Made by a program: the position numbers and the translations under genes
The notes under the pieces: generated by a model
The model's database searches: none
Seen by the model: the letters and a program-made list of their open reading frames with translations, nothing else
Told to the model about the DNA's origin: nothing
From: Frateuria soli
Lineage (GTDB): Bacteria > Pseudomonadota > Gammaproteobacteria > Xanthomonadales > Rhodanobacteraceae
Assembly (NCBI RefSeq): GCF_021117385.1
Contig: NZ_CP088252.1
Span: forward strand, 186,001-250,000
Direction of reading: 5' to 3'
DNA: 64,000 nucleotides
In this document: piece by piece, positions 23,330 to 45,527 of the stretch
Numbering within the stretch: position 1 is the first letter of the stretch
Layout of the letters: each line of letters starts with the position of its first letter

Positions 23330-24073
23330 TCAGCCCCCGCGCGCCCGCCGCGAGCGTGCGTACAGCGCGGCCAGCACGATGACCACCGCCAGGCCCAGCG
23401 CGGTCGACGCCGCGACCCCGGCTCCGTCCAGCGCCGACCGGTGTTGCCTGGCGTAGACGCCGATCAGGCCCCACACGGCGGCCAGGGCGTACCAGGGATT
23501 GCCGCGCAGGTACAGGACCGAGCCCAGCAGCAGGGCCGCGACGAGGACGAACAGGACCAGCGACCAGGGCAGCATGTGCGCCACCGGCAGCAGCCGGTAG
23601 GCAACGATCACCTGGGCGACGTTGAGGAACACCGCCAGCGACACCCAGCCCGCGTGAAGCGAGAGTGGCACCCATTGCCACCACCGGCCGTGCCCGTGGG
23701 CGGCGGTATCCGATACGCGTGCGGCGGAAAAAAGCAGGCTGGCCAGGCTTACCCAGATGATCGCCAAGGCCAGCCAGAACCACTGCAGCGAAAACACGAC
23801 CATCCACAGCGAAGTCATCGCGAAACCCAGCGTCGTCCACGGCCGGATGCTTGCCAGCCTGCGGTCGCGCGCGCGATCGAAGGCCTGCCAGGTGCCGAAC
23901 AGCACGTCCAGCGCGAAGATCGGCCCCCAGATGGCGAAGGCATAGCCGGCCGCCACGATCAGGGTCGGATAGCGGTCTGAGATCTCGCCGTTGGTGGGGC
24001 CGAACACCCCTGCGTTGGACAGCCACGCGACCACGGGCATCGCCCACGCGGACAGGAAAACCAGGTATTTCAT
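23330..24073 (-). CDS. TspO/MBR-like tryptophan-rich membrane protein
   Basis: A 247-residue integral membrane protein with about seven hydrophobic segments and many Trp residues. The AGYAFAIWGPIF motif near residue 42 resembles the larger TspO/MBR-related proteins. It is the last gene of the sigma/ChrR-linked lipid operon and overlaps the lipocalin gene by 4 bases (ATGA). TspO proteins bind porphyrins and have been linked to oxidative stress; a similar role here is inference. Confidence 0.72.
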   Translation of the reverse strand: MKYLVFLSAWAMPVVAWLSNAGVFGPTNGEISDRYPTLIVAAGYAFAIWGPIFALDVLFGTWQAFDRARDRRLASIRPWTTLGFAMTSLWMVVFSLQWFWLALAIIWVSLASLLFSAARVSDTAAHGHGRWWQWVPLSLHAGWVSLAVFLNVAQVIVAYRLLPVAHMLPWSLVLFVLVAALLLGSVLYLRGNPWYALAAVWGLIGVYARQHRSALDGAGVAASTALGLAVVIVLAALYARSRRARGG

Positions 24074-24642
24074 CGGCAGGCTCCGGCAAAGGTCTGGCTG
24101 CCAGCCCCCGTTTCGGGCCAGCGTTGCGGCGCCTTCACGATGCGGGCGACGTCGTATCCCATCGCGGCGGCTCGACCCAGCATCGCCTGGTACTCCGCAT
24201 CGGCAACCTGCGGCGTGCGCGCCATGTACCAGAGGTAGTCGCGCGCATCGCGCACCACCATCACCTGACTGTAGTCCGGCTTGAGCCAGCCGATCAGGTA
24301 CTGGGCGCTGAAGAACGCGAACAGCTGTACACGCCACTGGCCATTGCCACTGTCCGGCACCACCCTGGCGCTGGAGTGGAGCAGTTTCACCGGCGCATCG
24401 AAGCTGCCCGGTCGCAGGCGGAACCAGGTGCAGATGGTGCCGTCGGGGGTCAGCGTGTAGGTTTCCACCGGATTATGGCCGCCGCGCTCGTAGCGGGTCG
24501 GAATGGACGCGATCACGTACCAGCGGCCCATGAAGCGCGGCAGGTCGACCCCGGTGGCCGGCCTGATCGGCGGCCGGGCGCCGGCACAGCCGGCGGCGAA
24601 CGCCATGGCAAGGCAGATCGGAACCAGGCGGCCCATGATCAT
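24070..24642 (-). CDS. Lipocalin family lipoprotein
   Basis: A bacterial lipocalin (Blc-like) with a lipoprotein signal peptide: LAMAFAAGC is a good lipobox, so the mature protein is probably anchored to the outer membrane. The lipocalin GxW signature is FMGRWYVIASIP, followed by the conserved FSAQYLIGW and DYLWYMARTP strands. ATGs at 24642 and 24636 are both possible; the GAGGAGG ribosome binding site fits 24636 better. It is embedded between a methyltransferase and a TspO-like gene. A role in binding modified fatty acids is plausible but inferred. Confidence 0.88.
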   Translation of the reverse strand: MIMGRLVPICLAMAFAAGCAGARPPIRPATGVDLPRFMGRWYVIASIPTRYERGGHNPVETYTLTPDGTICTWFRLRPGSFDAPVKLLHSSARVVPDSGNGQWRVQLFAFFSAQYLIGWLKPDYSQVMVVRDARDYLWYMARTPQVADAEYQAMLGRAAAMGYDVARIVKAPQRWPETGAGSQTFAGACR

Positions 24643-24650
24643 GTGCCTCC

Positions 24651-25733
24651 TCAGGCGCCGCGCGCGAAGCGGTAATGGGCGACCAGCCACTCGCGGCCGC
24701 CGGCATAGCCGAACAGTTCCGCGCAGGCCATCCAGAACATGCGCCAGCGGTGGAACCAGAGCCTCGCCTGCGGTCCGTAGGCGAGCGCCAGCTCGGCCAG
24801 CACCGCCTCGCGCGCGGCGTCCTGGCGTGCCAGCCAATGGTTGGCGGTGCGCTGGTAGTGGCGGCCATCGACCAGCCAGCGCTGTTCGATCGCCAGGTCG
24901 CGCTGGAACCACAGCAGGGTGTCGGCCGCCGGCATCAGCCCGCCGGTGAAGAAGTGCCGGCCGAGCCAGTTGTCCTCGCCATGGGTTTCGAATGGATACA
25001 TCAGCGTGCGGTGCGCGAACACGTGCACGAACAGCTTGCCGCCGGGACGCAGCCACCGGGCGATGCGCTCGAGCAGGGTGTCGTAGTTGCGCATGTGCTC
25101 GAACATCTCGACCGACACGCAGCGGTCGAAGCAGGACGGTTCGAGCGCGAGCGTGTTCGCGTCGGCGGTCAGCACGCGCACGTTGGCGAGGCCGCGCGCC
25201 CGGCATTGCGCCTCGATGTGTCGACGCTGGCCGTGCGAGTTGGACACGGCCAGAATCCTGGCGCGCGGGTAACGCTCGGCCATCCAGAGCGTGAGCGAGC
25301 CCCAGCCGCAGCCGAGCTCCAGGATGTCCTGGCCGTCGGCCAGTTCGGCGCGTTCGCCGTAGAGCGCAAGCATCGCTTCCTCGGCCTCGGCCAGCGACTC
25401 GTCGCCGCGCGGGTAATAACAGCAGGAGTACTTCAGCCGCGGACCCAGGCAATGCTCGAAGAACGCCGCCGGCAGCTCGTAATGCTGGGCGTTGGCGGCG
25501 TCGGTGTGGATCGCCACCGGGCTCTGGCGCAATGCGTCGATGTGGCGGGCGTAGCGTTCGGCCACCCGCTCCGGGCCGCCCGCGCGCTCTTCGGCCAGCC
25601 GCTGCGCGCAGAGCCGGCGGATGCCAAGGCGAAGCAGCGCGTCGGGCAGCAACCCACGCTCGGCCAGGCCGAGCAGCCCGGAAGCGGGCCGGTCGGGCGA
25701 CAACTCGGTGGAATCCAGCGTGGCGATCGTCAT
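24651..25733 (-). CDS. CFA-synthase-family SAM methyltransferase (second in operon)
   Basis: A 360-residue SAM-dependent methyltransferase of the cyclopropane-fatty-acid-synthase superfamily. The SAM-binding motif is ILELGCGWGSLTLWMAERYP; SVEMFEHMRNY corresponds to the family's SxEMxEH signature. It keeps a CFA-like AAFFEHCLGPRLKYSCCYYP segment (canonical family form FFxLFL...MxYS). It overlaps the DUF1295 gene by 4 bases. It may methylate an unsaturated acyl chain without closing a cyclopropane ring; the substrate is unknown. Confidence 0.85.
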   Translation of the reverse strand: MTIATLDSTELSPDRPASGLLGLAERGLLPDALLRLGIRRLCAQRLAEERAGGPERVAERYARHIDALRQSPVAIHTDAANAQHYELPAAFFEHCLGPRLKYSCCYYPRGDESLAEAEEAMLALYGERAELADGQDILELGCGWGSLTLWMAERYPRARILAVSNSHGQRRHIEAQCRARGLANVRVLTADANTLALEPSCFDRCVSVEMFEHMRNYDTLLERIARWLRPGGKLFVHVFAHRTLMYPFETHGEDNWLGRHFFTGGLMPAADTLLWFQRDLAIEQRWLVDGRHYQRTANHWLARQDAAREAVLAELALAYGPQARLWFHRWRMFWMACAELFGYAGGREWLVAHYRFARGA

Positions 25734-26527
25734 GAACCACTCTCCTTGGGGCGCGTGCGCCTGGGGAACCAGGGGAAGAACATCGGCGTGCTTTGCTGAT
25801 AGGCGCGGTAGTCCCCGCCGCGCGTGCGCAGCGCCTGTGCCTCGGTCCACGGGATGCCGCTCAGCCAGCGCAGGAAGACGAACATCAGCACCGGGCCGAG
25901 CCAGGCCAGCCACGCATGCGGCGAGCCCTGGGCCAGCGCCACGTAGGCGAACCAGTGCAGCCATTCGAAGAAGTAGTTGGGATGGCGCGAGTAGCCCCAC
26001 AGGCCGATGCGGCAGGTGCGGCCGCGGTTCGCCGGGTCGGCGCGGAAGCGGGCCAGTTGCGCGTCGGCCAGCGCCTCGCCGCCGACACCCAGCAGCCACA
26101 CGAGCACGCCGGCCAGCAGCCAGCCCGGACGCGTGTGCGGGTTGTCCGCCACGGCCAGGAATGGCAGCGCGAACAAGGCGACCAGCACCGCCCGGGCCTG
26201 GAAGAACAGCCCCCAGCGCAGCGGGCGGTCACCCCATCGCCCACGCAACTGCCGGTAGCGGCCGTCTTCGCCTTCGCGCCGTACGCGGCGCCACAGGTGC
26301 CATGCCAGGCGCGCGCCCCACGCCCCGCCGAGCACGGCCAGGCAAAGCCGCGGCGCCGGTGCGCCGCGACCGAGCGCGGCGAGCAGCAGGGCGCTCGAGG
26401 CTAGCCCCGCGGCCCACAGCACGTCGACGATGCCGGCATTGCGCCGGCGCTGCTGCCACCACCAGCCGGCGGCCATCAGTGCCGCCGCAAGCAGCCATGC
26501 GAGCGTCAGGGCCAGCCATGGACTCAT
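25730..26527 (-). CDS. DUF1295 membrane protein (steroid 5-alpha-reductase-like)
   Basis: A 265-residue multi-pass membrane protein of the DUF1295 family, related in fold to steroid 5-alpha-reductases and isoprenylcysteine methyltransferases. The family signature is GLWGYSRHPNYFFEWLHWFAY; an early NAGIVDVLWAAG is also typical. Overlaps of 4 bases on both sides place it between DUF2878 and a CFA-family methyltransferase. A reductase step on a methylated or methylene fatty acid is my inference. Confidence 0.87.
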   Translation of the reverse strand: MSPWLALTLAWLLAAALMAAGWWWQQRRRNAGIVDVLWAAGLASSALLLAALGRGAPAPRLCLAVLGGAWGARLAWHLWRRVRREGEDGRYRQLRGRWGDRPLRWGLFFQARAVLVALFALPFLAVADNPHTRPGWLLAGVLVWLLGVGGEALADAQLARFRADPANRGRTCRIGLWGYSRHPNYFFEWLHWFAYVALAQGSPHAWLAWLGPVLMFVFLRWLSGIPWTEAQALRTRGGDYRAYQQSTPMFFPWFPRRTRPKESGS

Positions 26528-27057
26528 GCGCGGACCTGCTTCGGCGGATGGAGCAGCCAGTACCGCGCCAGCGAGGTCAGCACCGGCGTGGCCACCGCCC
26601 AGCCGAGTGCGAGCGCCAGCAGCGGGTGCCACGCCGGCGCCGCGATCGCCAGCGCACGCCAGCCGCGCGCCGCGCCGAGGTAGGCGAGTGGCCCGCCGAT
26701 CGCGCCCAGCATGGCGGCCAGCCACGGCCGCGCATGCAGGTAGCCGAACAGCGGCACGATGGTCAGCGCGAAGGCCACCCACAGCGCCAGCAGCCAGGCC
26801 GGTGCCGTCGCCACCGGCCAGGGCGCCGCGTAACGCAGCAGTCCGGCCCCGGTCCAGGTGGCTTCCAGCGCAAGGCCGAGCGCTAGCGCCACGGCGGCCA
26901 GGCGCAGGTCCACCAGGCGGGTACGGGATGTGGCCAGGCGCCAGGCGGCAAACAGCGCGACCGCCAGCAAGCCGGGCCAGGCATGGCCGCGACCGGCGCC
27001 GGCAACCGCCGCCAGCCACGCCAGCTCGTATGCGGCCAGGGTGACCCAGGCGTTCAT
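26524..27057 (-). CDS. DUF2878 membrane protein
   Basis: A 177-residue, very hydrophobic protein with about six membrane segments, matching the DUF2878 family that recurs next to CFA-synthase and DUF1365 genes in sigma/ChrR-linked clusters. Landmarks: LGLALEATWTGAGLLRY and a C-terminal LTSLARYWLLHPPK. It overlaps the CFA gene upstream and DUF1295 downstream by 4 bases each. Function unknown. Confidence 0.8.
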   Translation of the reverse strand: MNAWVTLAAYELAWLAAVAGAGRGHAWPGLLAVALFAAWRLATSRTRLVDLRLAAVALALGLALEATWTGAGLLRYAAPWPVATAPAWLLALWVAFALTIVPLFGYLHARPWLAAMLGAIGGPLAYLGAARGWRALAIAAPAWHPLLALALGWAVATPVLTSLARYWLLHPPKQVRA

Positions 27058-28328
27058 GCCGCCGCCGTGCCACGCCAGCCGGGCTTGGCCAGCAGCAGGT
27101 GTGCCACGCCGATCGAGCGCTCGCGGAAGCCGCCTTCGCAATAGGCCAGGTAGAACGTCCACATCCGGATGAACCGTTCGTCGAATCCCTGCGCGCGTAC
27201 GGCCGGCAACCGGGCGAGGAAGCGCTCGCGCCAGGCCTCCAGCGTGCGCGCGTAGGACTCGCCGAAATCGCGCAGCGCGACCAGGCCCAGGTCGCTGACG
27301 CGGGTCTTGGCCGAGAGCAGCGCCTGGATCGACGGGATGAAGCTGCCGGGAAAGACGTGGCGCTTGATGAAGTCCACCGAGCCCAGCGCCTGCGCGTAGC
27401 GGTGGTCCTCGATGGTGATCGCCTGCACCAGCGCGAGCCCTTCGGGCTTGAGCAGCCGGCCGAGCTGCGCGAAGTAGGTGTCCAGGTAGGCCGCGCCGAC
27501 CGCTTCGACCATCTCGATCGAGACCAGCTTGTCGTACTGGCCGCACAACTCGCGGTAGTCCTTCAGCTGCACTTCCACGCGGTCGCCCAGGCCGGCCGCC
27601 GCGACGCGCGCCCTGGCCAGCAAGAGCTGCTCGCGCGAGATGGTCGCGGTGGTGACGTGGCAGCCGTAGTGGCGTGCCGCGTGCAACGCGAAGCCACCCC
27701 AGCCGGTGCCGATCTCGATCACGCGGTCGCCGGGCTTCAGCGCGAGCTGCCGGCAGATCGCCTCGAGCTTGCGTGTGGAGGCCGCCTCGAGCGTGTCCGC
27801 CGGGCCGTCCCACAGCGCCGAGGAGTACATCAGGTCCGCGGACAGGAAGAGCTTGAAGAAGTCGTTGCCCAGGTCGTAGTGCGCGGCGATGTTGCGGCGG
27901 CTGCCGCTACGGGTGTTGCGCCGAAGCGCGTGCCAGGCGCGCATCGCGGCGCCGCCGAGGCGCGCCGGGCCGGTTTCCATGCCGTCGAGCAGGTCGCGGT
28001 TGCGCACCAGCAGGCGCACCAGCTTCACCAGCGCGTCCGCCTCGCTCAGGCCGGTGGCATGGCATCGCCACAGCCCGTCCATGAACGCCTCGCCCGCGCC
28101 GACGCTGCCGCGGCGCGCCAGCGCGCGATAGAAGGCCGGGTCGAGCACCTCGATGTCGACGGTCGGCAGCAGGCCTTCATCCGGGCCCAGCTCGGTCGTG
28201 CCCAGCGCATCGTGCACGCGCAGCCGGCCGTGGCGCAGGCCGGCCAGCCGGGCGAGCAGGCGGCCGCGCAGCAGGCGGTCGATGGTGCCCGGGGAGGGCG
28301 CCGTTGTGGTGCGGGCAACGGTGTTCAT
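27054..28328 (-). CDS. CFA-synthase-like methyltransferase (first in operon)
   Basis: A 424-residue cyclopropane-fatty-acyl-phospholipid synthase family enzyme. Visible features are the N-terminal lipid-binding domain with GEAFMDGLW, RNIAAHYDLGNDFFKLFL followed by MYSSALW, the SAM motif VIEIGTGWGGFALHAA, SIEMVEAVG, and the C-terminal RMWTFYLAYCEGGFRERSIG. It keeps the residues expected of an active enzyme, including the family Cys in YCEGGF. It is the archetypal CFA gene of sigmaE/ChrR clusters. The start at 28328 overlaps DUF1365 by 4 bases. Confidence 0.93.
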   Translation of the reverse strand: MNTVARTTTAPSPGTIDRLLRGRLLARLAGLRHGRLRVHDALGTTELGPDEGLLPTVDIEVLDPAFYRALARRGSVGAGEAFMDGLWRCHATGLSEADALVKLVRLLVRNRDLLDGMETGPARLGGAAMRAWHALRRNTRSGSRRNIAAHYDLGNDFFKLFLSADLMYSSALWDGPADTLEAASTRKLEAICRQLALKPGDRVIEIGTGWGGFALHAARHYGCHVTTATISREQLLLARARVAAAGLGDRVEVQLKDYRELCGQYDKLVSIEMVEAVGAAYLDTYFAQLGRLLKPEGLALVQAITIEDHRYAQALGSVDFIKRHVFPGSFIPSIQALLSAKTRVSDLGLVALRDFGESYARTLEAWRERFLARLPAVRAQGFDERFIRMWTFYLAYCEGGFRERSIGVAHLLLAKPGWRGTAAA

Positions 28329-29101
28329 GGCGTACCTCGGGAAGCGGCGGGATGGTCGTGAACCGGGTTGCGCTTCAGCCACAGGCGCAGTGCCTGCCAG
28401 TGGATCGCGCCGATCACCTGGGCGGTCATCAACGGGTAGCGCCACAGCACCCGCGCGAGCGAGGCGCCGGTGAGCGGCCTCCGTTGCAAGGCCAGCGACG
28501 CATCGAATTCGCGCCGGCCCTCGCGCAGCACGTCCATGTGTACGTGCAGGTCCTCGCCCGGCGCGGTGAAGCGCCAGTCGTAGTCGCGCGCCATCGGCAT
28601 GAACGGCGAGACGTGGAAGCTCTTGGGGAACGACCACGCCAGCACGCGGCCACGTCGGCGTGCATCGGCCACCGGCAGCACGTACGCGTGGCGCTCCTTC
28701 CAGGGCGTGTTGGTGATCTCGGCCAGGATGCACTCGAGCGTGCTGCCGTCTGCCGCATGGCAGTAGTAGAAGCTCACCGGGTTGAACACATAGCCCGCGT
28801 AGCGCAGGTGGGTGAGCAGGCGGATCGGACCGGCCGGCCTGTGCCCGGTCGCCTCGGCCACGCGCACGCGCACCGCCTCGGCCAGCGGCAACGTGTCTGG
28901 GGCGAGGTAATCGCCGCGGCGGAACTGGGCGAGGTTGCGCCGGTCGACCGACCACAGCCAGCGCCCGGCGAACACGCGATCGAGCTCGTCCAGGTCGAGG
29001 TAGAGCTGGGCCATGCGGTACTGGAAGGCGTGGGCATGCGGCTCCCGCCGGCGGTGGCGCACGATGCCTTCGTACACGGCGCTCGAAAGCGGCGCATTCA
29101 T
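28325..29101 (-). CDS. DUF1365 family protein
   Basis: A 258-residue cytoplasmic protein of the DUF1365 family. Signature stretches are AVYEGIVRHRRREPHAHAFQYRMAQLYLDLDEL, YAGYVFNPVSFYYCH and FPKSFHVSPFMPM. DUF1365 is almost always coupled to an FAD oxidoreductase and a CFA synthase, as here, with 4-base overlaps on both sides. No enzymatic activity is established; it may assist the lipid-modifying enzymes. Confidence 0.92.
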   Translation of the reverse strand: MNAPLSSAVYEGIVRHRRREPHAHAFQYRMAQLYLDLDELDRVFAGRWLWSVDRRNLAQFRRGDYLAPDTLPLAEAVRVRVAEATGHRPAGPIRLLTHLRYAGYVFNPVSFYYCHAADGSTLECILAEITNTPWKERHAYVLPVADARRRGRVLAWSFPKSFHVSPFMPMARDYDWRFTAPGEDLHVHMDVLREGRREFDASLALQRRPLTGASLARVLWRYPLMTAQVIGAIHWQALRLWLKRNPVHDHPAASRGTP

Positions 29102-30390
29102 GCGGCGTCGCCCGTGATCAGGCGCAGTGGCGGGCGCGTCGTCTCGCGCAGCCAGTCGATCCCGAAGCACGCGGCCACCTCGACGGCGCTGCGCAGGCCA
29201 TCCTCGTGGAAACCCCAGCCCCAGTAGGCGCCGGCGAACCAGGTGCGGTTGCGGCCCTGGATCTCGGCCTTGCGTTGCTGCGCCGCGACCGCCTCGCGGG
29301 TGTACACCGGGTGGTGGTACTGCAACCTGCGCAACACGCGATCCGGGTCGATCGCCGCGCTGCGGTTGAGCGTGACCACGAACGGCTCGGGCGGATCGAT
29401 GCCCTGCAGCAGGTCCATGCAGTAGCTGACCGTGCAGGGCGCCTCCGGCTCGCGCGGCACGAACGCGTTCCAGGCCGCCCATGCCTTGCGGTGGCGCGGC
29501 AGCAGCCGGCGATCGGTATGCAAGACCACCTCGTTGGCCTGGTAGGGCATCGCGCCGAGGATGGCGCGCTCACGCGCGCTGACGTCGGCGAGCAGCGCCA
29601 GCGCCTGGTCGCTGTGGCAGGCCAGCACCACGTGGTGGAAGCGCTCGTTGCCCGCCGGACTGCGCACGTTGACGCCCGCCCCGTCGCGGTCGATGGAAAA
29701 AACCGGGCAGGCCGGCCGCTCGCTCACGTGCCAGCGCTCGCGCAGCGCCTGCACGTAGCTGGCCGAACCGCCGCGGACCACGCGCCACTGCGGCCGCCCG
29801 GCGACCTGCAACATCTGGTGGTTGGCCATGAACCGCACCAGGTAGCGCGCCGGAAAGGCGAGGATCTGCTGCGGCGGCGATGACCACAGTGCCGAGGCCA
29901 TCGGCACCAGGTGCTCGTCGCGGAAAGCCTCGCCGTAGCCGTGCGCCTGCAGGTACTCGCCCAGCGTGGGATCGTCCCCGCCGGCTTCGAGCAATGCGGG
30001 CGCCTCCCGGTAGAAGCGCATGATGTCGCGCACCATCCCGAGGAAGCGGGGCGAGCACAGGTTTCGCCGCTGGCAGAAGAGCGTGTCGAGCGAGGTGGCG
30101 TTGTATTCGCGTCCGCTCGCCTCGTGCTGCACCGAGAAGCTCATGCTGGTCGGCTGCGATGCCACCCCGAGTTCCCCGAACATGCGGGTCAGCAGCGGAT
30201 AGTGCCGGGGGTTGTACACGATGAAGCCGGTGTCGATCGCGTAGCGCCGCCCGTGCTGTTCCACGTCGTGCGTGTGGGTGTGCCCGCCCAGGTAGGCATT
30301 GGCCTCGAACAGCACCACCTCGTGGCAGCGCGCGAGCAGCCACGCCGAGGCGAGGCCCGCGATGCCCGACCCGATCACGGCAATGCGCAT
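29098..30390 (-). CDS. FAD-dependent amine-oxidase-like oxidoreductase
   Basis: A 430-residue flavoprotein: the N-terminal Rossmann motif is IAVIGSGIAGLASAWLL with Glu in LFEANAYLGGHTHT, and the C-terminal GAYWGWGFHEDGLRSA matches the NAD(P)-binding/amine oxidase family. Comparable flavin amine oxidases sit beside CFA-like genes in the Rhodobacter sphaeroides RpoE-ChrR regulon, from memory. Desaturation or oxidation of methylated acyl chains is a reasonable inference. It starts 1 base after the desaturase stop and overlaps DUF1365. Confidence 0.9.
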   Translation of the reverse strand: MRIAVIGSGIAGLASAWLLARCHEVVLFEANAYLGGHTHTHDVEQHGRRYAIDTGFIVYNPRHYPLLTRMFGELGVASQPTSMSFSVQHEASGREYNATSLDTLFCQRRNLCSPRFLGMVRDIMRFYREAPALLEAGGDDPTLGEYLQAHGYGEAFRDEHLVPMASALWSSPPQQILAFPARYLVRFMANHQMLQVAGRPQWRVVRGGSASYVQALRERWHVSERPACPVFSIDRDGAGVNVRSPAGNERFHHVVLACHSDQALALLADVSARERAILGAMPYQANEVVLHTDRRLLPRHRKAWAAWNAFVPREPEAPCTVSYCMDLLQGIDPPEPFVVTLNRSAAIDPDRVLRRLQYHHPVYTREAVAAQQRKAEIQGRNRTWFAGAYWGWGFHEDGLRSAVEVAACFGIDWLRETTRPPLRLITGDAA

Positions 30391-30391
30391 G

Positions 30392-31345
30392 TCAGCGCGC
30401 CGCCCGCGCCAGCACCCGCGCGGGCACCGGCTTGAGGTCGTGGACCAGCCCCAGCAGCGCCATCAGCTTGAGGCCGTACCAGGTCAGGTCGATCTCCCAC
30501 CAGCGGAAGCCCTGGCGTGCGCTGCCGGGGAAGAAGTGGTGGTTGTTGTGCCAGCCCTCGCCGAAGGTCAGCAGCGCCAGCCACAGGTTGTTGCGGCTCT
30601 CGTCGCGCGTGGCGAAACGGCGCGTGCCGAACCGGTGGGCGAGCGAGTTGATCGTCACCGTGGCGTGGAACAGCACCACGGTGGACACGAAGAACCCCCA
30701 CGCCACCATCTGCATGCCGCTGGTGTGCAGGCCCGGTGCGGAGTGCTCGAGCCACGCGCCCAGGCCGTAGAGCGACAAGGCCAGCAACGCCGGCACCAGC
30801 GTGTCGAAGCGGTCGAGCAGCCGCAGTTCGGGATAGCGCGCCAGGTCCGGCACGCGCTTGAGGTCGGTGGCGAAGGCGCGCGGGGTGAGGAACCACCCGA
30901 GGTGGCTCCACAGGAAGCCGCGCACGCTCGGGGAGTGCGGGTCGCGTGGCGTGTCGGCATGGCGGTGATGATGCCGGTGGTGTGCGGACCACCAGAGCGG
31001 ACCGCGTTGCACGCAGGCGGCGCCGATCAGGGCGAAGGTGAACTGCACGGCGCGCGAGGTGCGGAAGGTGCGGTGCGAGAAGTAGCGATGGTAGAACCCG
31101 GTGAGCGCGAACATGCGCACGGCATAAAGCGCCGCGGCAACCAGCAGCGCGGCGGTTGACACACCGGTCCAGATCGTCGCCAGGCAGCCGAGGTGGATCA
31201 GCGCGAACGGCACCGCGCGCAGCCAGTCGATCCGGTCCGCCTTCGACTCGTCCGCCAATGCGGGTGTGCCGGCATCGAACCACATGCGCAGGCTGGCGCC
31301 GAGGCGACTCGGCGGGCGGAGGGCGGGGGCGGAGCGGCTCGGCAT
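30392..31345 (-). CDS. Acyl-lipid/acyl-CoA fatty acid desaturase
   Basis: A membrane di-iron desaturase (about 317 residues). All three histidine boxes are present: HRYFSH, HHRHHHRH and HNNHH, between paired hydrophobic segments, as in delta-9 desaturases. An ATG at 31375 is possible, but it directly follows the predicted -10 CGTA and has no ribosome binding site. The ATG at 31345 (MPSRSAP) has AGGT 8 nt upstream and fits transcription from that promoter, so it is preferred. It is the first gene of the nine-gene lipid operon. It would supply the double bond that the CFA-family enzymes act on. Confidence 0.9.
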   Translation of the reverse strand: MPSRSAPALRPPSRLGASLRMWFDAGTPALADESKADRIDWLRAVPFALIHLGCLATIWTGVSTAALLVAAALYAVRMFALTGFYHRYFSHRTFRTSRAVQFTFALIGAACVQRGPLWWSAHHRHHHRHADTPRDPHSPSVRGFLWSHLGWFLTPRAFATDLKRVPDLARYPELRLLDRFDTLVPALLALSLYGLGAWLEHSAPGLHTSGMQMVAWGFFVSTVVLFHATVTINSLAHRFGTRRFATRDESRNNLWLALLTFGEGWHNNHHFFPGSARQGFRWWEIDLTWYGLKLMALLGLVHDLKPVPARVLARAAR

Positions 31346-31375: not shown

Positions 31376-31402
31376 TACGTGGCGGACCGGCAAACGGATG
31401 CA
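31376..31402 (-). promoter_or_regulatory. Predicted ECF-sigma promoter of the lipid operon
   Basis: Minus strand: TGCATCCG (31402-31395) as -35 and CGTA (31379-31376) as -10, with 17 bases between ATCCG and the TA of CGTA. The same pattern and spacing precede sigma-chrR and the photolyase. Transcription would begin near 31368, ahead of the preferred desaturase start at 31345. Confidence 0.65.
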
Positions 31403-31424
31403 TCGAAGGCGTCGCTTCGCCGCA

Positions 31425-31451
31425 TGCATCCGGCCGCCGGGTTCGCGCGTA
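31425..31451 (+). promoter_or_regulatory. Predicted autoregulated promoter of sigma-chrR
   Basis: TGCATCCG (31425-31432) and CGTA (31448-31451) with 17 bases between ATCCG and TA, identical in layout to the divergent promoter and to that of the photolyase. The two divergent -35 elements form the inverted repeat CGGATGCAT/ATGCATCCG (31395-31403, 31424-31432). Confidence 0.65.
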
Positions 31452-31491
31452 CGTGACTTGAGACCGCAACCGCGGCAGGAATTGCCCTACG

Positions 31492-32121
31492 ATGAAACTC
31501 CAACCCACCGGCGGAACACCTTCGCCTTTCGAGGCGATACGCATCGTGTCGACTTCCAAGCTGCCAGCGAACGACGGACACGACTGGTCGGCCGAGATGG
31601 TCGCCGTCGCGCAGCGGCGGGACCGCGCGAGCTTCATGCGCATCTACGACCACTTCATGCCGCGCGTGTGCCTCTACCTGAAGGGCATGGGCTCGACCGC
31701 GGCGATCGCCGAAGAACTGGCGCAGGAAGCCCTGCTCAGGCTGTGGCAGCGGGCCGCGTCCTACGATCCGGCGCTCAGCCGCGTATCCACCTGGCTGTTC
31801 CGCATCGCCCGCAACCTGCACATCGACCGGGTGCGCAAGGAGACCGGCTGGATGCTGGTGCAGCATGCGCTCGAAGCCGAAGAGGCCGACCACGACGGAC
31901 GCACCGGTTCGTCCGCCGAGGCGTATGCCGAGCACACCAGGCTGAAGGCCTGCATCGACCGGCTTCCCGCCACCCAGGCCCGACTCGTCCGCATGTCCTA
32001 CTTCGAAGCCAAGTCCCACCACGAGATCGCCGAGGAGCTCGGCATGCCGCTGGGTACCGTCAAGTCCAGCCTGCGCCGGGCCTTCCTGAAGCTGCAGGCC
32101 GATGTGCGAGGTGCCGCATGA
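31492..32121 (+). CDS. ECF RNA polymerase sigma factor (RpoE/ChrR-type)
   Basis: A 209-residue ECF sigma factor with region 2 (about residues 45-110: FMRIYDHFMPRVCLYL, AQEALLRLWQRAASYDP, STWLFRIARNLHIDRVRKE) and region 4 (about 150-205: LPATQARLVRMSYFEAKSHHEIAEELGMPLGTVKSSLRRAFLKL). AGGAA lies 9 bases before the ATG. Its stop overlaps the chrR start (ATGA), the standard sigma/anti-sigma pairing. By homology it is held by ChrR and released by singlet oxygen or related oxidants. It probably drives its own promoter, the lipid operon and the photolyase. Confidence 0.93.
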   Translation: MKLQPTGGTPSPFEAIRIVSTSKLPANDGHDWSAEMVAVAQRRDRASFMRIYDHFMPRVCLYLKGMGSTAAIAEELAQEALLRLWQRAASYDPALSRVSTWLFRIARNLHIDRVRKETGWMLVQHALEAEEADHDGRTGSSAEAYAEHTRLKACIDRLPATQARLVRMSYFEAKSHHEIAEELGMPLGTVKSSLRRAFLKLQADVRGAA

Positions 32122-32789
32122 AGCCTGCGCATCACCTGGATCCCGCCACCGTCGTGGCCTTTGCCGCCGGCGCGCTGTCGGAGGCGATGGCGGTGGTGGC
32201 CGCGACCCACCTGGCCGGCTGCAGCCACTGCCATGAGCAGGTGCGCGACGCCGAGCGGATCGGTGGCGTGCTGGTGGAACAACAGCAGCCGGACGGGGCC
32301 GGCGCGGCGCGCCGCGAGAAGCTGCGCGCGGCGATGCTCGAGCGGCTGGACGAGACGCCGGTGGAGGCTCCCGGGCTCGCGCCGGCGCTGCCCGCCGCGC
32401 CGGACCCGGACCGCCTGCCGGCACCGCTGCATCCGTACTTCGGGACTTCCTTCGGCGCGCTCAAGTGGCGCTGGATGGCGCCGGGCGTGCACTGCATCCG
32501 CAGCGCGGGCACCGGCGGCGGCCAGCTCTTCATGCTCAGGATCACGCCGGGCAGGAGCATGCCGCTGCACAGCCATGGCCGCGGCGAGCTGACCCAGGTC
32601 CTGCGTGGCGCCTATGACGATGTGCTGGGGCATTTCGGTCCGGGCGACGTGGCCGACCTGGACAGCGAGGTGATGCACCAGCCGGTGACCGCCGCCGGCG
32701 TGCCATGCATCTGCGTCGCGGCCCTGGATGCGCCGCTGCGGTTCCCCGGCTGGCTCGCGCGCAGGCTGCAGCCGCTGGTCGGGTTGTGA
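32118..32789 (+). CDS. chrR: ChrR-type zinc anti-sigma factor with cupin domain
   Basis: The 223-residue protein has two zinc domains. The N-terminal anti-sigma domain carries His6, His31, Cys35 and Cys38 (THLAGCSHC), the same residue numbers I recall for Rhodobacter ChrR. The C-terminal cupin has His151, His153, Glu157 (PLHSHGRGE) and His187 (SEVMHQP), offset by ten from that protein. These domains are expected to bind the sigma factor and to sense singlet oxygen or organic hydroperoxide, respectively. It is translationally coupled to the sigma gene and convergent with the photolyase. Confidence 0.93.
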   Translation: MKPAHHLDPATVVAFAAGALSEAMAVVAATHLAGCSHCHEQVRDAERIGGVLVEQQQPDGAGAARREKLRAAMLERLDETPVEAPGLAPALPAAPDPDRLPAPLHPYFGTSFGALKWRWMAPGVHCIRSAGTGGGQLFMLRITPGRSMPLHSHGRGELTQVLRGAYDDVLGHFGPGDVADLDSEVMHQPVTAAGVPCICVAALDAPLRFPGWLARRLQPLVGL

Positions 32790-32826
32790 GCGGGGGTCGG
32801 TTGCGGCGTGGCGTCGTGCCGCAATC

Positions 32827-34245
32827 TCAGTGCCGGGCGATCCTCTGCCAGGCGGCAAGTGCCTGTTCCCTGGAAGCCGCCAGGTCGACCATCGGCGGCG
32901 GATAGCCGCGGGCCGCCAGCGCGGCCGGGTCACGCCATGGCTCGTGCAGCAGGTGGGCGGGCAGGTCGGCCAGTTCCGGCAGCCAGTGTTTGAGATAGGT
33001 CGCCTGCGGGTCGAACCTGGCCGCCTGCGTGCAGGGATTGAACACGCGGAAGAACGGAGCCGCGTCGGCGCCGCAACCGGCGGTCCACTGCCAGCCGAGC
33101 GTGTTGTTGGCCAGGTCCGCGTCCACCAGCGTGTCCCAGAACCAGCGCGCGCCATGCTGCCAGTGCTGGCGCAGGTTCTTGGTGAGGAAGCTGGCCACGA
33201 CCATGCGCACCCGGTTGTGCATCCAGCCCGTGTGCCACAGTTCGCGCATGCCGGCATCGACCAGCGGCACGCCGGTGCGGCCTTGCTGCCAGCGCGCGAG
33301 GGCAGCCGGGTCCTCGGCCCAGTCGAAGCGGTCGAAGCGCGAGTCGAACGGGGCCTCGGGCGTATGCGGGAAGTGGTAGAGCAGGTGGTGAGCGAATTCG
33401 CGCCAGCCGAGCTCGCGCAGGTACGGTTCCAGGTCCGGCGTGCGTTGGCCCGCGGCGGCCCCGGTGGCGCGCCGGAGCAGGATGTCGTGGATCTGCCGCG
33501 GCGTGATCTCGCCCAAGTGCAGGTGTGGCGAAAGCCGCGAGGTGCCGTGGCGGGCGGGCAGGTCGCGGCCGTGCGCGTAGTCGCAGAGCGCGTCGTCCGC
33601 GAACAGCTCCAGTTGCTCCAGCGCACCGGCGGCGCCAGGGCGCCACGCTTCCGCCAGCCCGGCGGCCCAGGGGCGGGTCGGCAGCAGGCCCAATGCCTCC
33701 AGCGGCAGGCTGCCGGGAAGTGAGGCCCACGCCCGCGGGCGGGCCGTGGCCAGCGGCGATACCGGCGCCAGTTGCGCGCGCAGCTTGCGCCAGAACGGAG
33801 TGAACACCCGGTAGGGCAGGTCCTGGGCCGTGGCCAGTTGCCAGGGCTCGTACCAAAGGTTGCCCGCGTGGCTTTCCACCGCCAGGCCTTCGGCGCGCAA
33901 TGCGGCCTTCACCCGGCTGTCCTGCACGATCGCCGCCGGTTCGTAGCGCCGGCTCCAGTAGACCGTGTCCGCACCACACGCGGCCGCCAGCCGGCGCAGC
34001 GCGTCGAAGCTGTCGCCCCGCGCCAGATGCAGCTGCCCGCCCTGTGCCGCAATCTCGCCCTGCAAGGCTGCGAGACTGTGGTGCAGCCACCAGCGGCTGG
34101 CCGCGCCGGGACGCCATCGCTTGTCCTCCGCCGGGGCGTGCACGTAGACCGGCAGCACGCTCGCGTGTGCCGCGCAGGCGGCGGCCAGCGCCGGGTGGTC
34201 GGCCAGGCGCAGGTCCCGCCGAAACACGACCAGGGCAGTACTCAT
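32827..34245 (-). CDS. phrB: Deoxyribodipyrimidine photolyase (CPD, class I)
   Basis: Photolyase uses FAD and blue light to split cyclobutane pyrimidine dimers. The 472-residue protein has the N-terminal antenna-binding domain (LVVFRRDLRLADHPAL) and the FAD domain with TSRLSPHLHLGEITPRQI, GVPLVDAGMRELWHTGWMHNRVRM and WQWTAGCGADAAPFFRVFNP, including the Trp residues used for electron transfer. It converges on chrR with 37 bases between stops. The promoter at 34277-34303 matches the sigma-chrR promoter, so light-damage repair and lipid remodelling are probably co-induced. Confidence 0.96.
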   Translation of the reverse strand: MSTALVVFRRDLRLADHPALAAACAAHASVLPVYVHAPAEDKRWRPGAASRWWLHHSLAALQGEIAAQGGQLHLARGDSFDALRRLAAACGADTVYWSRRYEPAAIVQDSRVKAALRAEGLAVESHAGNLWYEPWQLATAQDLPYRVFTPFWRKLRAQLAPVSPLATARPRAWASLPGSLPLEALGLLPTRPWAAGLAEAWRPGAAGALEQLELFADDALCDYAHGRDLPARHGTSRLSPHLHLGEITPRQIHDILLRRATGAAAGQRTPDLEPYLRELGWREFAHHLLYHFPHTPEAPFDSRFDRFDWAEDPAALARWQQGRTGVPLVDAGMRELWHTGWMHNRVRMVVASFLTKNLRQHWQHGARWFWDTLVDADLANNTLGWQWTAGCGADAAPFFRVFNPCTQAARFDPQATYLKHWLPELADLPAHLLHEPWRDPAALAARGYPPPMVDLAASREQALAAWQRIARH

Positions 34246-34276
34246 GCAGGCAATTCCGAAACCGTAGTCCGTGTTC

Positions 34277-34303
34277 TACGCCCATGGGAGGCGTTCGGAT
34301 TCC
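34277..34303 (-). promoter_or_regulatory. Predicted ECF-sigma promoter of photolyase
   Basis: Minus strand: GGAATCCG (34303-34296) and CGTA (34280-34277), again with 17 bases between ATCCG and TA. A start near 34270 would leave a leader of about 25 bases before the ATG at 34245. Confidence 0.62.
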
Positions 34304-43412: not shown

Positions 43413-45527
43413 ATGCCTCTCCGCAGCGCCAGCGTCGCCACTTCGACGGTTGCCGATCCGGGCCTCGCGCCGGTCGGCACACTGCCGGGCGTCGGCCCGG
43501 CGCTGGCTGCCACGCTCGGCAGGCTCGGGTTGGAGCGTGTGCAGGACCTGTGGTTCCACCTGCCGCTGCGCTACGAAGACAAGACCCGTGTCACCGCCAT
43601 CGGCGACCTGAAGGCCGGCGAGCGCGCGCAGGTGCTCGGCGTGGTGGAGGCGATCGAGCGCGGCTTTCGTTACCGCCCCCAGCTGAAGGTCGCCATCGGC
43701 GACGACTCCCGGCAGACGCTGCTGCTGCGCTTCTTTCATTTCCATCGCGCGCAGGCGGACCTGCTCAAGCCGGGCGTCAGGCTGCTGTGTTATGGCGAGG
43801 TCCGCCAGGGCGCGCAGGGCCTGGAGATGGTGCACCCCCAGTACCAGCGGGTGGGCGACGAGCAGGTCGTGGCGGTCGACGAGCGGCTGAGCCCGGTCTA
43901 TCCGACCACCGAGGGCCTGGGCCAGAAGCGGTTGGCCGGCGTGATCGGCAAGGCGCTCGCGCTGCTGCCGCCCGATGCGGCGCTGGAGCTCATCCCGCCG
44001 CCGCTGTGCGTGGCCCATGGACTGACTTCCCTGCGCGAGGCGCTCCTCTACGTGCACCGCCCGCCACCGGATGCTCCGCTGGCCGACCTGATCAGCGGCC
44101 GCCATCCCGCGCAGCAGCGGCTCGCCTTCGAAGAGTTGCTGACCCAGCACCTGAGCCTCAAGCGCATGCGTGCGGCCGTGCGCCGCCGGCGCGCGCCCGT
44201 GCTGGGCGGGAGCGGTGAGCTGCGCGGCCGCTTCGTCGCCGGCCTGCCGTTCCAGCTCACCGGCGCGCAGCAGCGGGTCACGCGCGACGTGCTCGCCGAC
44301 GTCGCGCACGCCAAGCCGATGCTGCGCCTGGTGCAGGGCGACGTCGGCAGCGGCAAGACCGCGGTCGCCGCACTGGCGGCGTTGGCCGCCGTGGAAGCCG
44401 GTTGGCAGGTCGCGCTGATGGCGCCCACCGAACTGCTGGCCGAGCAGCACCTGCGCAACTTCCGCCACTGGCTGGAACCGCTGGGCATACGTGTCGAATG
44501 GCTGGCCGGCAAGCAGCAGGGCAAGGCCCGTGCGCAGGCGCTGGCGCGCGTCGCCGAAGGCGCCCCCGTGGTGATCGGCACGCACGCCCTGATGCAGGAA
44601 GGCGTGGCCTTCGCGCGGCTGGGACTGGTCATCGTCGACGAGCAGCACCGCTTCGGCGTGCAACAGCGGCTGGCGCTGCGCGACAAGGGCCTGGAAGGCG
44701 ATCTGGTGCCGCACCAGCTGGTCCTTACCGCCACCCCGATCCCGCGCACGCTGGCGATGAGCGCGTATGCGGACCTCGACGTCTCCTCCATCGACGAACT
44801 GCCGCCCGGGCGCACGCCCGTGCAGACGGTGGCCGTATCCAACGCGCGCCGCGTCGAGGTGATCGATCGCATCCACGCCGCCTGCGCCGAAGGCCGCCAG
44901 GCTTACTGGGTATGCACGCTGATCGAGGAGTCCGAGCAGCTGCGCGCACAGGCGGCCGAGGTGGCGCATGCGGAGCTTTCCGCCGCGCTGGAGGGTTGCC
45001 CGGTCGGGCTGATCCACGGGCGCATGAAGCCCAGGGAGAAGCAGGCGGTGATGGATGCCTTCAAGGCGGGCGTGTTGTCCGTGCTGGTGGCCACGACCGT
45101 GATCGAGGTGGGCGTGGACGTGCCCAACGCCAGCCTGATGGTGATCGAGAACAGCGAACGATTGGGATTGGCCCAGTTGCACCAGTTGCGCGGGCGCGTG
45201 GGACGCGGCGCGGTCGCCTCCAACTGCGTGCTGCTGTACCAGCCGCCGCTGGGCCAGCTCGCACGCGAGCGCCTCAATGTGATGCGCGAGACCTGCGACG
45301 GCTTCCGCATTGCCGAAAAGGACCTCGAGTTGCGCGGGCCCGGCGAGGTACTGGGCACGCGCCAGACCGGCCAGCTCGCCTTCCGCATCGCGGACCTGGC
45401 GCGTGACGCCCACCTGCTGCCGGCGGTGCAGCAGGTGGGCGAGGCGATGCTGGGTCGGCATTCGCGCGACGCCGAGCGGTTGATCGAACGCTGGATCGGT
45501 GCTGCCGCGCGCTATGCGCACGCCTGA
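43413..45527 (+). CDS. recG: ATP-dependent DNA helicase RecG
   Basis: RecG remodels stalled replication forks and branch-migrates recombination intermediates. The 704-residue protein has the N-terminal wedge/OB domain (PLRYEDKTR), Walker A GDVGSGKTAVA, motif II DEQH (VDEQHRFGVQQR), TATPIPRTLAMS, and motif VI QLRGRVGRG. The length is normal. The ribosome binding site is weak. Confidence 0.97.
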   Translation: MPLRSASVATSTVADPGLAPVGTLPGVGPALAATLGRLGLERVQDLWFHLPLRYEDKTRVTAIGDLKAGERAQVLGVVEAIERGFRYRPQLKVAIGDDSRQTLLLRFFHFHRAQADLLKPGVRLLCYGEVRQGAQGLEMVHPQYQRVGDEQVVAVDERLSPVYPTTEGLGQKRLAGVIGKALALLPPDAALELIPPPLCVAHGLTSLREALLYVHRPPPDAPLADLISGRHPAQQRLAFEELLTQHLSLKRMRAAVRRRRAPVLGGSGELRGRFVAGLPFQLTGAQQRVTRDVLADVAHAKPMLRLVQGDVGSGKTAVAALAALAAVEAGWQVALMAPTELLAEQHLRNFRHWLEPLGIRVEWLAGKQQGKARAQALARVAEGAPVVIGTHALMQEGVAFARLGLVIVDEQHRFGVQQRLALRDKGLEGDLVPHQLVLTATPIPRTLAMSAYADLDVSSIDELPPGRTPVQTVAVSNARRVEVIDRIHAACAEGRQAYWVCTLIEESEQLRAQAAEVAHAELSAALEGCPVGLIHGRMKPREKQAVMDAFKAGVLSVLVATTVIEVGVDVPNASLMVIENSERLGLAQLHQLRGRVGRGAVASNCVLLYQPPLGQLARERLNVMRETCDGFRIAEKDLELRGPGEVLGTRQTGQLAFRIADLARDAHLLPAVQQVGEAMLGRHSRDAERLIERWIGAAARYAHA

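Follow-up and report, generated by a model that had tools for sequence, protein, structure and literature searches.

A putative ECF11 (RpoE/ChrR-type) promoter shared by a sigma-chrR pair, a membrane-lipid operon and, more weakly, a photolyase gene in Frateuria soli

Which genes answer to the extracytoplasmic function (ECF) sigma factor encoded beside chrR in Frateuria soli? The question arises from a 64,000-nucleotide stretch of its genome (assembly GCF_021117385.1, contig NZ_CP088252.1, positions 186,001 to 250,000; hereafter the window), in which a first-pass annotation had noticed by eye the same promoter pattern before the sigma-chrR pair, a divergent nine-gene lipid operon and a photolyase gene (phr). 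These three sites are very probably promoters of one ECF11 (RpoE/ChrR-type) sigma factor that would serve its own operon, the lipid operon and the photolyase. The reading builds on what can be observed directly, namely the sites and their conservation, the gene families, the metal ligands of ChrR and the structure of the operons. At rest, the sigma factor would be sequestered by ChrR, its zinc anti-sigma, and released by singlet oxygen or organic peroxides, if the signals known from relatives and from general knowledge apply. By the same analogy, the freed factor would bind the three sites and start transcripts a few bases past CGTA, transcribing sigma-chrR, the divergent membrane-lipid operon, in which a trio of furan-fatty-acid family genes hints at the presumed lipid product, and, more weakly, the photolyase.

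The shared ATCCG-N15-CGTA lies exactly where the annotation had placed it, at 31428-31451 on the plus strand and at 31399-31376 and 34300-34277 on the minus strand (pattern check of the window), and its likeness to RpoE/ChrR-type promoters, with TGATCC and a CGTA-type -10, agrees with published ones (PMC5507510; PMC4336711; PMC5241685). The (A/G)(A/C) prefix ascribed to the -35 element was a misreading, the actual bases being G(C/A). From the end of the site to the start codon there are 40 bases for the sigma gene, 30 for the desaturase gene and 31 for the photolyase gene, and the two divergent -35 boxes are spaced by 22 bases. The desaturase gene starts at 31345, past its own putative promoter; a longer, mechanically called open reading frame (ORF) from 31429 would span that promoter. 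Across the genome (3,488,520 bases), the proposed search for ATCCG-N15-CGTA returns 21 copies against 3 of the reversed pattern, but 14 of them are within predicted genes, coding status being predicted with a simple codon score, and five of the seven outside aim at a gene, so that this pattern alone is unspecific. TGCATCC-N16-CGTA occurs seven times against none reversed (41 against 16 when one mismatch is tolerated). Each copy precedes a gene on its own strand (sigma, desaturase, clpS, msrA, a 100-aa ORF, a DsbD/redoxin fusion and a BLUF protein), and one of them overlaps the start of a divergent gene. A weight matrix built from relatives' sites, which had been preselected for exact ATCC and CGTA and whose desaturase query was out of frame, ranks the lipid operon site first, the sigma site second and the photolyase site fourth among 127,936 window positions, and the score of the last is attained by none of 1,279,360 positions of first-order random sequence. 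The third-ranking site (44049-44072; 44075, minus) was rejected as a promoter, being antisense inside a predicted gene.

Conservation carries most of the argument. Sigma orthologs (51-100% identity) occur in 34 of the 117 sampled genomes of the family, Frateuria soli included, and these genomes, with 35 loci picked from 80 further ones, gave 68 loci, of which L215 and L224 duplicate others; the sigma count was limited to the 66 with at least 200 upstream bases. In the 250 bases upstream, 62/66 sigma genes and 46/48 operon desaturases have ATCC-N16-CGTA. For each of two controls, the upstream sequence reversed and a stretch immediately within the genes, the counts were 0/66 and 0/48. The bases preceding ATCC at 109 sites are TGC (94), CGC (11), TGA (3) or AGG (1), and the base following it at 105 sites is A (79) or G (26). 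Going by these counts, the fuller motif of the lineage is TGCATCC[A/G]-N15-CGTA. It carries one more base ahead of ATCC than the published TGATCC, which precedes the sigma gene in the more distant loci L239 (Dongia) and L240. The ATCCG core first proposed is thus present at all three window sites, but its final G gives way to A in most relatives. In line with a working motif, TGCATCC-N16-CGTA averages 5.06 copies per genome in the 34 genomes with an ortholog, 4.27 in the 22 with a weaker hit only and 1.21 in the 61 with neither, the reversed pattern averaging 0.26, 0.32 and 0.36 (Mann-Whitney p 2e-13 for orthologs and 8e-10 for weaker hits against the no-hit group, uncorrected and ignoring kinship). 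Together with RNA-seq from Stenotrophomonas (PMC11832516), this conservation strongly supports the prediction, made in the annotation, that this sigma factor controls its own gene and the lipid operon.

The chrR ORF directly follows the sigma ORF with a 4-base overlap. Its product matches TIGR02451 (ChrR) with 154.2 bits against a cut-off of 124.5, and the NCBIfam equivalog NF051881 below cut-off (153.6 against 300). The zinc ligands reported for the anti-sigma domain, H6, H31, C35 and C38 (PMC6852236), are the same residues at the same numbers. The cupin ligands, HxHxxxE and a histidine 30 residues on, are H151, H153, E157 and H187 here and H141, H143, E147 and H177 in the reference numbering; positions 141, 143, 147 and 177 of this protein hold other residues, the ligand spacing being kept. 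Judged by cut-off and metal ligands, the predicted anti-sigma is ChrR. For the sigma factor, the best NCBIfam match is the SigK subfamily model, below cut-off (109.4 against 226). In a single-gene tree it falls in a 13-row clade (99/97) of Lysobacteraceae, one g5 genome and two proteobacteria, and its four congeners form a group apart (100/99). This grouping with Lysobacteraceae sequences rather than congeners suggests that the sigma locus was acquired from outside the genus.

Only -4 to +8 bases separate neighbouring genes of the nine-gene lipid operon, which makes a single promoter for all of them plausible. The families and order of the operon's cyclopropane-synthase family methyltransferase (CMAS), FAD and DUF1365 genes would fit UfaM, UfaD (RSP1091; PMC7380195; PMC5507510) and UfaO (RSP1090; PMC7380195) of Rhodobacter sphaeroides, going by the papers' descriptions and by operon order, and the order FAD-DUF1365-CMAS also adjoins sigma-chrR in Dongia. 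The features of the locus are collected in Table 1.

Table 1. Predicted genes and putative promoters of the locus (window coordinates).
Feature	Coordinates	Strand	Basis
sigma-chrR promoter, ECF11-type, putative	31425..31451	+	TGCATCC-N16-CGTA; ATG 40 bases on
Lipid operon promoter, ECF11-type, putative	31376..31402	-	TGCATCC-N16-CGTA; desaturase ATG (31345) 30 bases on
phr promoter, weaker, ECF11-type, putative	34277..34303	-	GGAATCC-N16-CGTA; ATG 31 bases on
ECF sigma factor, 209 aa	31492..32121	+	Pfam Sigma70_r2/r4; tree position
ChrR anti-sigma (zinc anti-sigma domain and cupin)	32118..32789	+	TIGR02451, Cupin_7, metal ligands
phr, DNA photolyase/cryptochrome family	32827..34245	-	PF00875 and PF03441 over cut-off
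Fatty-acid desaturase, operon gene 1	30392..31345	-	PF00487
FAD amine-oxidase family, UfaD-like by family and operon position	29098..30390	-	PF01593
DUF1365 protein, UfaO-like by operon position	28325..29101	-	PF07103
Cyclopropane-synthase family methyltransferase, UfaM-like by operon position	27054..28328	-	PF02353
DUF2878 protein	26524..27057	-	PF11086
DUF1295 protein	25730..26527	-	PF06966
Second cyclopropane-synthase family methyltransferase	24651..25733	-	PF02353
Lipocalin	24070..24642	-	PF08212
Last operon gene, no Pfam match at 0.01, membrane protein by eye	23330..24073	-	

Several observations weigh against three promoters for one such sigma factor. Exact sites are missing before the sigma gene in L101 (congener G074), L109, L206 and L210, and before the desaturase in L086, which has a one-base variant, and L212. 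The photolyase site deviates from the consensus at the T and the C of TGC; three congeners (G005, G031 and G046), in which phr is close to chrR, lack any site up to 500 bases from phr, and 26 of the 33 sigma-carrying genomes with phr have no exact site within 200 bases. Finally, the activated sigma factor of Stenotrophomonas maltophilia conferred tolerance to superoxide and not to singlet oxygen (PMC11832516), which makes the inducing signal in Frateuria soli uncertain.

The points on phr are those on which an alternative would draw in which only the sigma-chrR and lipid operon promoters are real, the phr match is due to chance and the gene is read by the housekeeping polymerase. This alternative, to which the unlikeness of GGAATCC to TGCATCC and the abundance of ATCCG-N15-CGTA inside genes also lend some weight, is nevertheless unlikely in view of the distribution of the site. 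phr matches were found in 83 of the 117 genomes, and 82 upstream regions were examined, G079 being excluded as a partial match with no start; a site within 200 bases precedes phr in 7 of 33 sigma-carrying genomes and in 0 of 49 sigma-less ones (Fisher one-sided p 0.0011, ignoring kinship and uncorrected). The seven belong to four genera (Frateuria soli, three genomes of genus g4, two of g26 and one of g12), and one sigma-less genome has a match at -548. Its high matrix rank, just before the ATG, likewise argues against chance, as does gene order: in G018 and G038 phr comes after chrR in the same orientation, and in L237 it is the last gene of the lipid operon, so that its linkage to the regulon recurs. 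As to the gene itself, no NCBIfam photolyase model reaches cut-off, the best by E-value being a cryptochrome model, and the congeners G060 and G074 have no phr match.

A lipocalin gene with its own site lies between phr and chrR in G005, G031, G046, G069, G116, G094, G022 and G110, the spacer of that site being 17 rather than 16 in G031 and G046. In L082, L083, L085 and L105, the gene after such a lipocalin gene is the counterpart of the last lipid operon gene of Frateuria soli, so the neighbourhood of phr and chrR has been rearranged among relatives. The lipocalin gene and its neighbour (window 23330-24642) close the lipid operon in Frateuria soli, whereas in L082, L083 and L085 they are near phr, with a separate site before the lipocalin gene. 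For control of photorepair by this sigma factor, then, support from the comparison is moderate, because phr has the weaker site, one that three congeners lack, yet phr sites within 200 bases occur only in sigma-carrying genomes. The conservation in orthologous loci that the annotation had looked to therefore holds for the sigma gene and the desaturase but fails for phr in those congeners, and its claim on photorepair stands in this reduced form: the sigma and lipid operon targets are, on the upstream regions compared, nearly fixed, and the photolyase appears to be wired lineage by lineage.

A different ECF sigma factor might read these promoters, and some genomes point that way. Around weaker ECF hits, 18 stretches were examined. 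Seven of them (G059, G109, G070, G033, G111, G021 and G011; loci L403, L404, L401, L402, L395, L396 and L397) have the FAD gene in reach and TGCATCC-N16-CGTA before the gene preceding it. That preceding gene was scanned with Pfam in G021 alone, where it is a desaturase; none of these seven genomes carries the ChrR-linked sigma factor. In five stretches (G039, G104, G052, G054 and G055; loci L387, L389, L391, L392 and L388), the weaker-hit sigma gene, another gene and phr follow one another; of these five genomes only G054 also has the ChrR-linked sigma ortholog. The weaker-hit sigma gene of G080 and G114 comes after the end of the lipid operon. All eight presumed anti-sigmas scanned match RskA_C, a scan from which those of G104 and G054 were left out, and the three weaker-hit sigma factors scanned match the SigK subfamily model with 164-169 bits, under the cut-off of 226; SigK is a loose label, since the window sigma factor also matches that model best, at 109. 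Frateuria soli itself has a more distant ECF gene at C1:1977k. For this genome, a different factor is nonetheless very improbable as the reader of the sites, as the only match to the sigma factor at E<=1e-20 is the factor itself, whose own gene bears the motif.

In those relatives, we infer that the RskA-linked ECF pair would read the TGCATCC motif. Against simple autoregulation of that pair, an exact ATCC-N16-CGTA stands just before the weaker-hit sigma gene in only 1 of the 18 stretches (G045, as CTCATCC), and listings of the open-licence literature showed nothing that connects these genes with an RskA-type or SigK pair. The promoter and the lipid and photolyase regulon may even persist in the family while the sigma/anti-sigma pair is exchanged, ECF11-ChrR in some genomes and another ECF with an RskA-type partner in others, a proposal that we put forward tentatively, as falling slightly short of an even call. 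If true, such an exchange of regulators on a constant promoter would answer a remark on some Pseudomonas fluorescens strains, which retain a promoter of this type before phrB without the sigma factor (PMC5507510). That the two divergent sites are instead one palindromic repressor operator, as the inverted repeat made by GGATGCAT and ATGCATCC might suggest, is hardly credible, because the motif stands singly before the sigma gene or the desaturase in relatives with other gene arrangements, where CGTA mostly lies 16 bases past ATCC.

Beyond the three sites in the window, two further genes are leads, with sites common to some relatives. The BLUF gene (L173:1501-2123; G000:C1:2225512-2226134) has TGCATCC-N16-CGTA 29 bases upstream, and close homologs (E 4.2e-44 or better) occur in eight relatives, seven of them with a sigma ortholog; two of the eight have exact sites (G046, and G054 as CGCATCC), four a degenerate TGCGTCT-N16-CGTA at similar distance and two none, and three weaker BLUF matches have no site. 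BLUF is mentioned only in general terms in the excerpt of the Vibrio cholerae paper (PMC5241685). The second lead, msrA (L170:766-1527; G000:C1), has a site at 1375698-1375724 on the minus strand, 33 bases upstream. Of 30 msrA loci examined, those of Frateuria soli, G046 and G031 have an exact site near -60, those of G067 and G092 one near -85 and that of G040 one at -226. G067, G092 and G040 have no sigma hit among those listed, and 5 of the 8 sigma-carrying genomes in this set of 30 (G005, G074, G089, G053 and G020) have no site, which makes msrA a mixed case. Before clpS (L169:1501-1878; G000:C1:1214806+), the ECF motif overlaps a TATACT/TATAAT box common to 30/30 loci and is exact in 4/30, namely Frateuria soli and three sigma-carrying congeners; it is absent in G074, which has the sigma gene, and in G060, which does not, and the pattern rows show it before clpS also in four g4 genomes. 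At L172:817-3024 (G000:C1:1977775+), the motif lies between the DsbD/redoxin fusion gene and a divergent, different ECF sigma gene, whose start it overlaps. The 100-aa ORF with a motif (C1:1466487) has no Pfam match, and a redoxin gene at C1:2185907 was among the candidates considered. The GTP cyclohydrolase gene folE, with CGCATCC-N16-CGTA 37 bases upstream, was rejected as unconserved: among the loci of 29 relatives, exact ATCC-N16-CGTA occurs in two (G003, GGGATCC at -51; G046, CACATCC at -206) and in none of the other 27.

Overall, this arrangement belongs to a known type, since the lipid operon of Stenotrophomonas depends on sigma and ChrR, and photolyase control by this type of sigma factor has been published or predicted for other gammaproteobacteria (PMC5507510; PMC4336711; PMC5241685). 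What Frateuria soli would add is an extension of the singlet-oxygen sigma regulon to another lineage, with the promoter corrected there to its longer form, and a separation of nearly fixed targets (sigma, lipid operon) from those wired by lineage (photolyase, with BLUF and msrA as leads). Among the closest known systems is RpoE-ChrR (ECF11) of R. sphaeroides, which likewise pairs a sigma factor with a zinc/cupin ChrR and has the same regulon of sigma-chrR, FAD/DUF1365/CMAS and photolyase genes (PMC6852236; PMC5507510; PMC7380195). Frateuria soli differs in its -35 element, TGCATCC where TGATCC is published for this sigma type, and in the make-up of its lipid locus, a single operon of nine genes that also encodes a desaturase, a lipocalin and a second CMAS. 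Another is the S. maltophilia pair of rpoEc-chrR-chrA and smlt2375-2367, the latter a divergent sigma-dependent lipid operon with the same desaturase-to-lipocalin order; L214 is among the loci of that species in which the gene families were matched. In RNA-seq done once, loss of ChrR raised this operon 165-697-fold, and further loss of the sigma factor brought it back down (PMC11832516). In contrast to that locus, Frateuria soli has no leading smlt2375-like gene, one extra gene closes its operon, and chrR is directly followed by phr instead of chrA, which was not sought elsewhere.

Pseudomonas syringae PSPTO_1043/1042 (PMC5507510) and Shewanella RpoE2-ChrR (PMC4336711) likewise have ATCC-N16-CGTA promoters, including that of the sigma gene, and a regulon with photolyase and CMAS. 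The published forms are TGATCC-N16-CGTA as the P. syringae consensus (PMC5507510), TGATCC and CGTAAT with mapped starts in Shewanella (PMC4336711) and TGATC-N16-18-CGTAW in V. cholerae (PMC5241685); in Frateuria soli the same ECF11 form stands before the sigma gene and the core targets, preceded by TGC or GGA and not TG. In P. syringae and Shewanella, phrB belongs to the same locus or operon as the lipid genes, whereas phr of Frateuria soli lies across sigma-chrR with its own putative site, and Shewanella also has a second, separate phr with its own promoter (PMC4336711).

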